Of a stretch of DNA of 64,000 nucleotides, positions 12,666-20,236 are shown in pieces. Under the pieces are notes generated by a model that was not told where the DNA came from, ran no database searches, and was given only the letters and a program-made list of their open reading frames with translations. The translations under genes were made by a program, and so were the position numbers. Each line of letters starts with the position of its first letter. Within the stretch, counting starts at the first letter, position 1. This DNA comes from Microbacterium sp. TPD7012 (GTDB lineage: Bacteria > Actinomycetota > Actinomycetes > Actinomycetales > Microbacteriaceae), in contig NZ_QDFV01000003.1 in NCBI RefSeq assembly GCF_003075395.1, forward strand, positions 496,685 through 560,684, read 5' to 3'.

Positions 12666-14147
12666 ATGACAGCACTGGCGGACGCGACGGTCGAGCAGGT
12701 GAACGCGCTGGGTGCGGTCACCGAGATGCTCGTCGAGGTCGAGCGCACGATCAGCAGCATGCAGGCCGTCCGGGACGGTTTCCTCGCGGTCGGGTCCCGG
12801 TTGGCGGTCGACGTCGCGGGCCAGGCGGGGTCTCGGGAGGAGGCGGATCTGGTGTTGCGGTCGGTCGCGGCGGAGTTCGCGGCCGCGCTGCGGGTGTCGG
12901 ACCGGACGGTGCAGCGGCGGATGACGGACGCGTCGTTCCTGGTGGAGCGTTTCCCGTCGGTGTGGCGGGCACTGGGGTCGGGGCGGATCAGTGCCGGGCA
13001 TGCGCGGGTGATCTGCGACGCCGGCGAGCACCTGGACGATCCCGCGGACCGGGAGGCGTATTCGGCGGAGATGATCGGGTTCGCGGAGACGGAGTCCGCG
13101 AACCGGGTCGCGCGGTGGGCGCGGCGGGTCGCGGAACGGTACCAGGCGCGTCCGGTCAGTGACCGGCACAAGGATGCGCGGAAGAAGCGGGGCGTGTGGG
13201 TGAAAGACCTCGCTGACGGGATGGCGGAACTCGGCATGTGCGGGCCCGCCGCGTTGGTGCATGGAGCATTCGAACGGATCACCGCCATGGGAAAGACCGT
13301 GCAGGAACAGACGGTGCCGGAACAGACGGTGCCGGAACAGACGGTGCCGGAACAGACGGTTCAGGAACAGACGGTTCAGGAACAGACGGTGCAGGAACAG
13401 ACGGGCCCGACCCGGGCGGATGCCGGAACGCACGCGACCGCGAGTGCGCCCGCAGGCGAGTCGCCGGAGACCGCGTTCGGCCCGGCCGCGGATGCGACGC
13501 GGACCGCGGGACGACCGACCGGTGACACGGTCGCCAAAGACCCGCGCACTCTGGGACAGATCCGCGCGGACATCGCCCTCGACCTGCTCCTCACCGGAGC
13601 CCCGGCAGGGCACGACACCCCCGGCGGCCTCCTCGGAGCGATCACGGCAAGCGTGTCGGTCACGGTCCCGGTCACGACTCTGATGGGGCACGGCACGACC
13701 CCCGCGGAACTGAACGGGTGCACCCCGATCGACCCCGACACCGCGAGACACCTCGCGGGGGCGGCATCCGGGTGGGATCGCATCCTCACCGACCCCATCA
13801 CCGGCGCGCTCCTCACTGTCGACCGCTACCGACCCAGTGCGGAGCTGAGACGACACCTCCGGGCCCGGGACCAGCGTTGCCGATTCCCCACCTGCGGGTA
13901 CGCCGCCACCCACAGCGATATCGACCACCACCACGACGCCGCCCACGGCGGTGCGACCACGGTGGAGAACCTCGGCCACCTCTGCCGACGACACCACGTC
14001 CTCAAGCACCACTCGCCATGGCACGTCGAACCCCTCGGCGACGGCACCTACGCCTGGACCAGCCCCACCGGCCGCACCTACATCGACAAGCCGCCGCCCC
14101 CGCACACCATCACCTTCACCGAAGACGACACCCCACCACCCTTCTGA
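12666..14147 (+). CDS. HNH endonuclease with DUF222 domain (13E12 repeat family)
   Basis: The 493-residue protein has a DUF222 region (about 15-190) and a C-terminal HNH nuclease domain: RCRFPTCGYAATHSDIDHHH, then NLGHLCRRHHVLKHH (about 400-450), with Cys and His metal ligands. The family is widely multiplied in actinobacteria; a role in DNA cleavage or mobile introns is suspected but unproven. Residues about 212-246 are seven tandem five-residue units (VQEQT or VPEQT) coded by 15-bp DNA repeats, a likely slippage hot spot. It is flanked by a PEP mutase-like gene on the other strand and an RNB nuclease downstream. Confidence 0.88.
   Translation: MTALADATVEQVNALGAVTEMLVEVERTISSMQAVRDGFLAVGSRLAVDVAGQAGSREEADLVLRSVAAEFAAALRVSDRTVQRRMTDASFLVERFPSVWRALGSGRISAGHARVICDAGEHLDDPADREAYSAEMIGFAETESANRVARWARRVAERYQARPVSDRHKDARKKRGVWVKDLADGMAELGMCGPAALVHGAFERITAMGKTVQEQTVPEQTVPEQTVPEQTVQEQTVQEQTVQEQTGPTRADAGTHATASAPAGESPETAFGPAADATRTAGRPTGDTVAKDPRTLGQIRADIALDLLLTGAPAGHDTPGGLLGAITASVSVTVPVTTLMGHGTTPAELNGCTPIDPDTARHLAGAASGWDRILTDPITGALLTVDRYRPSAELRRHLRARDQRCRFPTCGYAATHSDIDHHHDAAHGGATTVENLGHLCRRHHVLKHHSPWHVEPLGDGTYAWTSPTGRTYIDKPPPPHTITFTEDDTPPPF
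13299..13403 (+). repeat. Seven tandem 15-bp in-frame repeats inside the HNH gene
   Basis: The unit is GTGCAGGAACAGACG, with variants GTGCCG (units 2-4) and GTTCAG (units 5-6). The copies are otherwise identical in GGAACAGACG. They code for VQEQT, VPEQT x3 and VQEQT x3. The unit length is a multiple of three, so changes in copy number keep the frame. Confidence 0.95.
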
Positions 14148-16971: not shown

Positions 16972-18123
16972 TCAGACCGTGACGACCTGGGCCGTGCCGA
17001 GCGGAGCCTCGGGGCCCATCTCGGCGGCGATCCGGTTCGCCTCCTCGATCAGCGTGGCGACGATGTCGGCCTCGGGGACGGTCTTGATGACTTCGCCCTT
17101 GACGAAGATCTGCCCCTTGCCGTTGCCGGAGGCGACACCGAGGTCGGCCTCGCGCGCCTCGCCGGGACCGTTCACGACGCAGCCCATCACGGCGACACGC
17201 AGCGGGACGGTCATGTCCTTGAGCCCCTCGGTCACGTCTTCCGCGAGGGTGTACACGTCGACCTGCGCGCGTCCGCACGACGGGCACGACACGATCTCGA
17301 GCTTGCGCTCGCGCAGGTTGAGGGACTGCAGGATCTGGTGACCGACCTTGACCTCTTCCGCGGGAGGTGCGGACAGCGAGACGCGGATGGTGTCGCCGAT
17401 GCCCTCGCCGAGCAGGATGCCGAACGCCGTCGCACTCTTGATCGTGCCCTGGAACGCCGGACCTGCCTCGGTGACGCCGAGGTGCAGCGGCCAGTCGCCC
17501 ATCTGCGCGAGCAGGCGGTAGGCCTGGACCATGATCACCGGGTCGTTGTGCTTCACCGAGATCTTGAAGTCGTGGAAATCGTGCTCCTCGAAGAGCGAGG
17601 CCTCCCAGCGCGCGCTCTCGGCGAGGGCCTCCGGAGTCGCCTTGCCGTACTTCTGCAGCAGACGCGGGTCGAGGGACCCTGCGTTGACGCCGATCCGCAG
17701 CGAGACACCCGCGTCCTTCGCCGCCTTCGCGATCGCGCCCACCTGGTCGTCGAACTTGCGAATGTTGCCCGGGTTCACACGCACGGCGGCGCAGCCGGCG
17801 TCGATCGCCTGGAAGACGTACTTCGGCTGGAAGTGGATGTCGGCGATCACCGGGATCTGGCTCTTCTTCGCGATGATGTGCAACACGTCGGCATCGTCCT
17901 GCGAGGGAACCGCGACACGCACGATCTCGCAGCCGGACGCCGTGAGCTCGGCGATCTGCTGCAGGGTCCCGTTGATGTCGGTCGTCTTCGTCGTCGTCAT
18001 GGACTGCACGCTGACGGGTGCGTCACCACCGACGAGCACCTTGCCCACCTTGATCTGGCGGGACTTGCGACGCGGGGCGAGGACGACGGGGACCTTCGGC
18101 ATCCCAAGATTCACTGCTGGCAC
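16972..18123 (-). CDS. ispG: 4-hydroxy-3-methylbut-2-en-1-yl diphosphate synthase (flavodoxin)
   Basis: The 383-residue IspG (GcpE) is the penultimate MEP-pathway enzyme, reducing MEcPP to HMBPP with a [4Fe-4S] cluster. The TIM barrel is N-terminal ([31 protein letters not shown]). The cluster ligands are in [11 protein letters not shown] (about 290) and [16 protein letters not shown] (about 325). The GTG at 18123 is chosen because TAGGCT (18135-18130) is 6 nt upstream, a leaderless arrangement, though the GTG at 18114 has a weak Shine-Dalgarno. With dxr at 25397 it marks the MEP pathway in this region. Confidence 0.97.
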
Positions 18124-18129
18124 CCCTCA

Positions 18130-18135
18130 AGCCTA
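18130..18135 (-). promoter_or_regulatory. -10 box TAGGCT of ispG, leaderless type
   Basis: TAGGCT on the minus strand is followed by 6 nt (TGAGGG) and the GTG start of ispG. Confidence 0.55.
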
Positions 18136-18212
18136 CGCCGCCAGGATGCACGAGGGCTGGATGTCGGCCGCATGGTCACGGTGTCATCCGCCCGGGGACG
18201 GCGCCTCCGGTG

Positions 18213-18221
18213 TGGTAGTTT
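18213..18221 (+). promoter_or_regulatory. Extended -10 promoter of the trp leader (TGGTAGTTT)
   Basis: TG at 18213-18214 and TAGTTT at 18216-18221 form an extended -10. The predicted transcription start, 7 nt downstream, coincides with the ATG of the leader peptide. No TTGACA-like -35 is seen at the usual distance. The leader peptide would therefore be read from a leaderless RNA. Confidence 0.5.
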
Positions 18222-18228
18222 TCACCCC

Positions 18229-18264
18229 ATGCTCGCGAACTTCACCTGGTGGCCCGCCTCCTAG
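18229..18264 (+). CDS. trpL: trp leader peptide, 11 residues with tandem Trp codons
   Basis: The open frame reads MLANFTWWPAS and stop. Two adjacent TGG codons (18247-18252) sit just before a GC-rich region that can pair in alternative ways ahead of a terminator hairpin. This is the classical sensor of charged tRNA-Trp: stalling at the Trp codons would free the antiterminator. It lies 88 bp upstream of the trpE-trpG fusion gene. It is too short for ordinary gene calling. Confidence 0.9.
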   Translation: MLANFTWWPAS

Positions 18265-18316
18265 GCGGTGTGTTCGCGTTCCCACGAATCCAGACCGCCT
18301 CCGGGGCGGTCTTTTC
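18253..18316 (+). promoter_or_regulatory. Tryptophan transcription attenuator (alternative hairpins)
   Basis: Four pairing segments can be read. Segment 1 CCGCCT (18254-18259) pairs with segment 2 AGGCGG (18263-18268). Segment 2, extended to AGGCGGT, pairs perfectly with segment 3 ACCGCCT (18294-18300). Segment 3, as AGACCGCC (18292-18299), pairs with segment 4 GGCGGTCT (18305-18312). With Trp plentiful, 1:2 and 3:4 form and transcription stops; with a ribosome stalled on the Trp codons, 2:3 forms and transcription continues. Confidence 0.85.
18292..18316 (+). terminator. Intrinsic terminator of the trp attenuator
   Basis: An 8-bp GC-rich stem (AGACCGCC / GGCGGTCT) with a 5-nt loop is followed by TTTT. 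It lies between the leader peptide and trpEG and is the 3:4 hairpin of the attenuator. Confidence 0.88.
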
Positions 18317-18352
18317 GTTGAGCCGAGCCGGAGCCCTGCACAGGAGACATCG

Positions 18353-20236
18353 ATGACCCTCTCACGACTCGCCGAGCTCAGCACCGACCCGGCGTCATCC
18401 TTCGTGCTGATCGCACGCGACGGCGCCGACACCGTCGAGCTCCTCACCGGCGATGTCGTCGACGTCGACCTGCTCCGCGACATCCCGCTCGACGTCGACG
18501 GCGTGCCGCGCGAGGTGTTCGCGCTCGTCCCGTATCGACAGGTCCGCGAGCGCGGCTTCGTGGCGCAGGACGACGGGGCGCCCCTGCGCTGCATCGTCGT
18601 GGACGAGCACGTGCACCTCGACACCGCGCAGCTTCTCGCCGCGCTCCCCGACGCACCCGTGCCGCTGCACGACGACGGCTTCGACATCGCGGACGCGGAG
18701 TACGCCGCGATCGTCGAGAAGGTCATCGCCGAGGAGATCGGACGCGGCGAGGGAGCCAACTTCGTCATCCGCCGCGACTTCACGGCGAACATCGACGTCG
18801 ACGACCGCACAGCGGCGCTCACCTGGTTCCGCGCGCTGCTCACGCACGAGCGCGGGGCGTACTGGACGTTCGCCGTGTTCACCCCCGGCCACATCGCGGT
18901 CGGTGCGAGCCCGGAGGCGCACGTCGTCGCCCGCGGCGGCGTCGTCACCATGAATCCGATCTCCGGCACGTTCCGGCACCCGGCCGGAGGCGCCACCAGG
19001 GAGACCCTCGTCGACTTCCTCGCGTCGACGAAGGAGACCGAAGAGCTGTTCATGGTCGTCGACGAGGAGCTCAAGATGATGAGCGCCGTCTGCTCCGACG
19101 GCGGCAGGATCACGGGTCCGCACCTCAAGGAGATGTCACGGCTCACGCACACCGAGTACATGCTGCGCGGACGCAGTGCCCTCGATCCCCGCGACATCCT
19201 GCGCGAGACGATGTTCGCCCCCACGGTCACCGGCTCTCCGATGCAGAACGCCTGCGCGGTCATCCGCCGGCATGAGAAGAAGCCCCGCGGCTATTACTCC
19301 GGTGTGGCGGCCCTGTTCACCCCGAATGACGCCGGTGGACACGACCTCGACGCCCCGATCCTCATCCGGACCGTGTATCTCCAGGATGGCGCCCTGAGCG
19401 TCCCTGTGGGCGCGACCCTGGTGCGGCACTCGGACCCGCTCGGCGAGGTGTCGGAGACCCACGGCAAGGCAGCGGGCGTTCTGGGCGCCATCGGCGCCAT
19501 CGACCGCGATCGCGTTGCCGAGGCCCGCAGCGACGCGGATGCCCCCGGTGACGAGAAGGCACTCGCCGACGATCCGACGATCGCCGCACTGCTCTCATCG
19601 CGCAACGCCCGGCTCGCGGACTTCTGGCTCAACCCGCAGGGCGACGACCTCGACGGACCTTTCGCCGGACGTACCGCCCTCGTCGTCGACGCCGAGGATC
19701 GCTTCACGACGATGCTCGCCCACCAGCTCCGCCACCTCGGCCTCGCCGTCACGATCAGCCCCTGGAGCGAGGTGCAGGACGCCGATCTCGATGCGGCCGA
19801 CATCGTCGTGGCTGGCCCCGGCCCAGGCGACCCTCGGGATGCCGCGAACTCCCGTATCGCCCGCATGCGCGAGGTCGTCGCTCGGCGCATGGATGCCGAG
19901 GCCCCGCTGCTCGCCGTCTGCCTGAGCCACCAGATCCTCAGCGACCGCTTCGGCATCGCGCTGACGTCGCTCGATGCTCCGCATCAGGGCCTCCAGAAGG
20001 CAGTGCCCGTGTTCGGTGAGGAGCCGTCGATCGGCTTCTACAACACCTTCACCGCCCGGGTCGCACCCGGCACGACGACGGTCGGGCCGGCGGAGGTCTC
20101 GGCGGACGCCGGATCGGGCGACGTCTATGCGCTTCGCGGCGCCCACTTCGCCTCGGTGCAGGGGCATCTCGAGTCGATCCTGTCGCGAGACGGCATCCAC
20201 ACGCTCGAACGTCTCGTCCGTCACGCACTCGCCTGA
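18353..20236 (+). CDS. Fused anthranilate synthase (TrpE-TrpG type, PhzE-like)
   Basis: The 627-residue protein joins a chorismate-binding component I domain (about 1-420; SPEAHVVARGG, TMNPISGTFRHP, SPMQNACAVIRR) to a class I glutamine amidotransferase (about 437-627). The triad is visible as Cys523 in LLAVCLSHQ, His605 and Glu607 in SVQGHLES. The CLSHQ elbow and overall layout are closest to PhzE-like enzymes, which make ADIC, but the upstream Trp attenuator argues that this one makes anthranilate for tryptophan. The ATG at 18353 has AGGAG 6 nt upstream. No phenazine genes are nearby. The choice between anthranilate and ADIC synthase is an inference. Confidence 0.85.
   Translation: MTLSRLAELSTDPASSFVLIARDGADTVELLTGDVVDVDLLRDIPLDVDGVPREVFALVPYRQVRERGFVAQDDGAPLRCIVVDEHVHLDTAQLLAALPDAPVPLHDDGFDIADAEYAAIVEKVIAEEIGRGEGANFVIRRDFTANIDVDDRTAALTWFRALLTHERGAYWTFAVFTPGHIAVGASPEAHVVARGGVVTMNPISGTFRHPAGGATRETLVDFLASTKETEELFMVVDEELKMMSAVCSDGGRITGPHLKEMSRLTHTEYMLRGRSALDPRDILRETMFAPTVTGSPMQNACAVIRRHEKKPRGYYSGVAALFTPNDAGGHDLDAPILIRTVYLQDGALSVPVGATLVRHSDPLGEVSETHGKAAGVLGAIGAIDRDRVAEARSDADAPGDEKALADDPTIAALLSSRNARLADFWLNPQGDDLDGPFAGRTALVVDAEDRFTTMLAHQLRHLGLAVTISPWSEVQDADLDAADIVVAGPGPGDPRDAANSRIARMREVVARRMDAEAPLLAVCLSHQILSDRFGIALTSLDAPHQGLQKAVPVFGEEPSIGFYNTFTARVAPGTTTVGPAEVSADAGSGDVYALRGAHFASVQGHLESILSRDGIHTLERLVRHALA

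Follow-up and report, generated by a model that had tools for sequence, protein, structure and literature searches.

How a tryptophan attenuator is read by a ribosome that would start at the very 5' end of its transcript is the question raised by this locus. In the enteric trp attenuator, the leader peptide is preceded by a ribosome-binding site within a 5' untranslated region. In the window (the whole stretch of 64,000 nucleotides from Microbacterium sp. TPD7012 analysed here), the + strand gap between a divergent ORF (16972-18123), a putative ispG, and an ORF starting at 18353 holds a leader and attenuator with the following features:

18213-18221, + strand: extended -10 element, TG-g-TAGTTT (TG at 18213-18214, TAGTTT at 18216-18221)
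18222-18228, + strand: spacer of 7 nt between the -10 element and the ATG
18229, + strand: predicted transcription start, at the A of the ATG that opens the leader, separated from the -10 element by the 7-nt spacer
18229-18264, + strand: leader ORF of 11 residues, MLANFTWWPAS (ATG at 18229-18231, TAG at 18262-18264)
18234-18240, + strand: 5' arm of the outer stem, in leader codons 2-4 (partner 18272-18278)
18247-18252, + strand: tandem Trp codons of the leader, TGGTGG
18254-18259, + strand: segment 1 (inner arm)
18263-18269, + strand: segment 2, overlapping the stop codon
18272-18278, + strand: 3' arm of the outer stem (partner 18234-18240)
18292-18300, + strand: segment 3
18304-18315, + strand: segment 4 and T run (18312-18315), intrinsic terminator
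18342-18346, + strand: Shine-Dalgarno-like AGGAG of trpEG, 6 nt 5' of the trpEG ATG
18353-20236, + strand: fused PhzE-like trpEG, the anthranilate synthase gene by domain and structure matches and the gene presumably regulated

The 11-residue leader with its two adjacent Trp and the extended -10 element 7 nt before the ATG were found as a preliminary description of this DNA had given them. The same description had proposed four segments with exact pairings of 6-8 bp. This holds for 1:2 (18254-18259/18263-18268, 6 bp) and 2:3 (18263-18269/18294-18300, 7 bp), but 3:4 (18292-18300/18304-18312) extends over 9 bp and includes one G-U. The 2:3 antiterminator and the 3:4 terminator with its U tract are mutually exclusive, as in the classical trp attenuator. 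The 3:4 hairpin, GC-rich and reaching with its T run from 18292 to 18315, was also picked up by a terminator scan. The leader RNA (92 nt) folds at -39.9 kcal/mol (z -3.30), and only 1 of 200 shuffles was equally stable. We also used a joint test of the four-segment geometry (for 3:4 at least 8 bp, a loop of at most 8 and a T tail; for 2:3 and 1:2 a minimum of 6 bp and 5 bp, respectively), which the window passes and 0 of 2000 dinucleotide shuffles do. It was passed as well by 64 of 95 leaders from congeners; the 31 that failed did so on the strict 3:4 criterion (27), on 2:3 (2) or on 1:2 (2). At the gathering threshold, the only Rfam match in the whole window was a tRNA. The attenuator is compact: it runs over 84 nt between the leader ATG and the last base of the terminator stem, and packs promoter, start codon, sensor codons and terminator into ca. 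100 bp. Elsewhere in the window, an ORF (12666-14147) that by eye looks like an HNH-type protein has a mid-protein run of near-identical five-residue repeats (TVPEQ/TVQEQ).

The product of trpEG combines a chorismate-binding domain (residues 115-372) with a glutamine amidotransferase domain (443-622), and its closest solved structure is 3r74 (residues 27-626, E 7e-155), which we take to be PhzE. No NCBIfam cut-off was reached among the best 25 of 41 rows. The genome contains three chorismate-binding genes. Since the second scores best as pabB (308.9 bits, under the cut-off of 328.4) and the third as isochorismate synthase (249 bits, over the cut-off of 224.75), trpEG is the only anthranilate synthase candidate of the genome, a status that fits control by Trp. 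This single candidate is PhzE-like and not a standard TrpE. Named relatives at 84-92% identity are Microbacterium. Within 1.5 kb upstream of two Glycos_transf_3 matches, IGPS, trpS and the two other chorismate-binding matches, we found no short ORF with at least two Trp codons and a -10 element at 5-8 nt.

We searched 99 Microbacterium genomes for the locus. Three (G044, G046 and G064) were excluded, as their best match was partial, and 97 loci were read upstream. Left out of these were L008, at a contig edge with 100 nt upstream, and L100, a second paralogue (43% identical) in G097, which leaves 95 leaders. Tandem Trp codons in a short ORF upstream of a trp gene, as in the classical attenuator, were present in all 95 readable loci, which are related (76 distinct first 60 nt) and so do not amount to 95 independent cases. 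The leaders are 9-12 codons long and start with ATG (91) or, in four cases, GTG. The first WW is preceded by four to seven codons and is followed by exactly three codons and then the stop in 94 of the 95, and by two in L092. The residues before WW are highly variable, and the shortest leaders, two in number, have 9 residues. The wide variation ahead of WW suggests that the constraint is therefore on the Trp codons and on their distance to the stop codon and segment 2. A T-tailed terminator was found by script in 94 of the 95 leaders; the script found none for L092, which was excluded from the folding and helix tests (n = 94). In L096 the 3:4 stem is followed by ACTGGTGTC in place of the T run, a weak tail, and this locus is perhaps a decaying attenuator.

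Where would the transcript begin? In the window, a scan of 18100-18400 for the sigma-70 consensus found no -35/-10 pair, and the promoter, as read from its letters, is a TG-extended -10 element without an evident -35. Among the 95 congener leaders the motif TAnnnT precedes the start codon by 6 nt in 60 and by 7 nt in 35, with the TG extension in 91, compared with a background of 10 of the 1304 ATG triplets of the window that have TAnnnT 6-7 nt upstream. A motif of this kind so close upstream of the start codon has been published as the signature of leaderless actinobacterial genes (PMC3160421), and in S. lividans the distance from the -10 element to the transcription start is on average 6.3 nt (range 4-9; PMC8079986). 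From the conserved position of the -10 element we infer that transcription of the leader starts at the ATG or within one base of it. A transcript that starts well upstream, with the leader peptide translated from within a 5' untranslated region, would be physically possible, as the leader ATG lies about 105 nt away from the divergent ORF. However, the 110 nt upstream of the 95 leaders contain no conserved promoter element other than the TAnnnT at -13/-12 (95 occurrences, against 11 in total elsewhere) and no -35-like peak, column conservation drops above about -18, and not one of the 95 has a Shine-Dalgarno-like motif at -16 to -5 of the leader start. We consider such a leadered attenuator improbable. 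A Trp attenuator and a leaderless leader peptide, which the preliminary description had proposed jointly, are well supported, first by the conservation in 95 of 95 loci and second by where the one promoter element that is conserved lies.

To follow the alternative pairings we used a masking model, in which the RNA behind the front edge of the ribosome is hidden, this edge being set 11 or 13 nt beyond the A-site codon's first base. When the ribosome stood on one or the other Trp codon, the model formed 2:3 before segment 4 was transcribed in 93 of 94 leaders, with both footprints. With the ribosome at the stop codon, it formed 2:3 in none and 3:4 in all 94. In the model only, a ribosome on the Trp codons would free segment 2 and one at the stop codon would mask it, as expected of a classical attenuator. 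At equilibrium, 3:4 won despite the stalled ribosome in 88 of the 94 leaders (first Trp codon) and in 90 (second), and antitermination must therefore be kinetic. Ribosome-free RNA ending before segment 4 gave 2:3 at equilibrium in 34 of 94 leaders, including that of the window, and the outer stem in 57, so that the terminating default would also rest on the order of folding. RNA that ended just before segment 3 almost always contained the outer stem (93 of 94 leaders), whereas the inner 1:2 stem was present in 50. To terminate by default without a ribosome, the hairpin of 18234-18278 would have to form first and persist.

The 1:2 stem of the preliminary description is present, but it is only the inner part of this longer hairpin. 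The outer stem (18234-18240/18272-18278), which pairs leader codons 2-4 with the RNA beyond segment 2, had been missed and is covarying. Aligned over 84 distinct leaders, it shows changes on both sides in 6 of its 7 pairs, and 0 of 500 shuffles reach its covariation score, shared ancestry not being fully removed in this or in the permutation tests. Its covariation was 0.123, against at most 0.070 for slid partners, with 16.5% of cells unpaired. The 74 distinct pairs of outer arms gave -11.05 kcal/mol for cognate arms, against -9.99 (sd 0.24) for arms dealt among species (0/200). Controls without pairing sense were weaker (3' arm reversed, 52/200; 5' arm reversed, 10/200; 3' arm complemented, 87/200), and complementing both arms, which keeps Watson-Crick pairing, still gave 0/200. 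Outer arms from 40 distinct leaders of a more distant set, for which a wider 3' region was used than in Microbacterium, gave -15.49 against -12.83 (sd 0.44; 0/200, reversed 26/200). The covariation that had been suggested as a check on the stems was, across the Microbacterium leaders, found in the outer stem and in 3:4 (4 of 9 pairs changed on both sides), but not in the inner 1:2 stem, where no pair changed on both sides and the permutation test gave a weak signal (4/200), nor in 2:3, whose core is nearly invariant and so yields no covariation support.

The outer stem begins 5 nt from the predicted 5' end and would pair bases 6-12 of the RNA, so that once formed it would be expected to hinder leaderless initiation. 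It is possible that the outer stem has been selected as a gate on leaderless initiation and that the trpEG attenuators of actinobacteria share it, a proposal that we make tentatively and regard as somewhat doubtful. If true, the 5' end would be closed once about 50 nt had been made, and only a ribosome loading near the polymerase would read the leader. Ribosome and polymerase would be synchronised without a Shine-Dalgarno site, and each leader would be used a single time.

We believe that the region is, with high probability, a ribosome-mediated transcription attenuator of trpEG whose leader peptide is translated from a leaderless 5' end. Transcription would begin at the leader ATG or within a base of it, and a ribosome would initiate on the leaderless 5' end and translate MLANFTWWPAS behind the RNA polymerase. 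With charged tRNA-Trp scarce it would stall on either TGG, leaving segment 2 free, and 2:3 would form before segment 4 exists, so that the polymerase would read into trpEG. With ample Trp the ribosome would reach the TAG three codons on and mask segment 2, and 3:4 would terminate transcription. Without a ribosome, the hairpin of 18234-18278 (outer stem plus inner 1:2) can form first and hold segments 2 and 3 apart, so that termination is the likely default. As this hairpin pairs RNA bases 6-12, leaderless initiation would be poor on a leader that is released or late, and ribosome loading is probably early and once per transcript. How a ribosome that starts at the very 5' end couples to the polymerase had seemed puzzling in the preliminary description, and the spacing and the masking geometry answer it in part.

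One alternative is that the leader peptide acts in trans, like peTrpL of S. meliloti, with the attenuator only part of its function. There is a precedent in that species (PMC7298713), and termination at the attenuator would yield a small leaderless mRNA. However, the residues before WW vary widely, two leaders have only 9 residues, and the outer stem, judging from the folding, would hinder translation of a released leader. We regard such a role in trans as very improbable.

At order or phylum level we examined 36 loci outside Microbacterium. A WW leader preceded at 5-8 nt by TAnnnT is present in 23 of them, two (L124 and L125) have WW without TAnnnT, and 11 show no leader. Ten of these 11, including L118 and L122, have no WW leader further upstream either, and the remaining one, L108, is unreadable, with 25 nt upstream. 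Five of the 11 (L110, L128, L136, L137 and L138) are second copies in genomes where the other copy has a leader. A further set of 80 named loci showed WW with TAnnnT at 6-7 nt in 55 of 57 in its Microbacterium-dominated part, which overlaps in part the 95 congeners, and in 20 of 23 others, among them Plantibacter, Agromyces, Jiangella, Blastococcus, Kutzneria and more. The two exceptions among the 57 are matches that begin close to the end of a contig, with 115 nt and 1 nt of upstream sequence, and the three among the 23 are one locus of P. aeruginosa PA7 and two of Streptomyces. Judging from these counts (23/36 and 20/23), trpEG attenuators of actinobacteria appear commonly to share the leaderless design reported for Streptomyces. 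That the locus is a constitutive terminator or an untranslated structure with an incidental WW ORF is hardly credible: the terminator is indeed strong and thermodynamically dominant, but WW is kept in 95 of 95 congeners and the three codons to the stop in 94, while the flanking residues and the number of codons before WW change, and WW leaders recur at 20 of the 23 other named loci and are absent at that of P. aeruginosa PA7.

A T-tailed terminator was found by script in 25 of the 40 distinct leaders of the distant set. Of these 25, 23 formed 2:3 with a stalled ribosome, and three leaders (L104, L120 and L201) still formed it with the ribosome at the stop codon; the fit of the model is thus better in Microbacterium than in the relatives of this genus. 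Seven loci from order relatives (L109 and L111-L116, family f14) have WWW or WW, a -10 of the leaderless type and GC hairpins, with no T-tailed terminator found by script; termination or control may be different in them. Fused PhzE-like copies without a WW leader comprise the five second copies named above together with L100, L218, L219 and L220, and in the congener genome of L100 (G097) another copy does carry a leader. Possibly the attenuator marks the fused-gene copy that is used for tryptophan.

The design itself is not new, contrary to what the preliminary description had implied, since leaderless leaders of attenuators, those of trp attenuators before trpE or trpE(G) among them, are in print (PMC8079986, PMC7298713, PMC11857589). 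With the enteric trp attenuator (Rfam RF00513) the window shares the four segments, the tandem Trp codons and the U-tract terminator, but the corresponding Trp_leader model scored only 31.2 bits on a relaxed search, below its gathering score of 41. Classical trp attenuators are known in Corynebacterium and Streptomyces (PMC1262725), and like the one in the window they have a leader with double or triple UGG, a GC-rich terminator and a poly-U tract; the first part of that paper discusses neither leaderless starts nor Microbacterium. The leader before trpE in C. glutamicum has three consecutive Trp (PMC4046766). A trpE attenuator of S. venezuelae was described by Lin, Paradkar and Vining (cited in PMC1262725 and PMC4833913), and a 2015 title cited in PMC4833913 concerns Trp attenuators across Actinobacteria. 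A literature search on attenuator terms showed no occurrence of the word Microbacterium among the matches listed, which is no proof of absence.

A close parallel is trpL1 of S. lividans, MFAHSTRNWWWTAHPAAH, which lies before trpE and is reported to have a leaderless transcript that contains two hairpins and a stretch enriched in uridine (PMC8079986). Both are leader peptides with tandem Trp, that of the window being leaderless by prediction, but trpL1 has 18 residues, WWW and a longer tail, whereas the leader of the window has 11 residues, WW and three codons to the stop. The gene behind trpL1 in S. lividans is trpE; the homologous fused gene at L131, which is 52% identical to trpEG of the window, has a leader that differs from trpL1 by one residue. 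In S. meliloti, Trp attenuation acts on a trpE(G) gene whose leader RNA is likewise leaderless, its 5' end being the ATG of trpL (PMC7298713); this system differs in belonging to a distant phylum and in its 14-residue peptide with a role in trans. Leaderless regulatory short ORFs of an actinobacterium are also represented by the mycobacterial polycysteine ORFs (Canestrari 2020, cited in PMC13236596), which differ in sensing cysteine and in working, according to PMC13236596, by translation attenuation. In C. glutamicum the start codon of ilvL is one nucleotide from +1, and the first hairpin of the ilvBNC leader has been proposed to shield leaderless initiation (PMC11857589), as the outer stem of the window may do, with the differences that branched-chain amino acids are sensed there and that the sequence is another. 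The leaderless trp attenuator is thus already described in related bacteria, and what is added here is one structural detail, the covarying outer stem, in what may be a clean system for studying how ribosome and RNA polymerase stay in step where there is no Shine-Dalgarno site.
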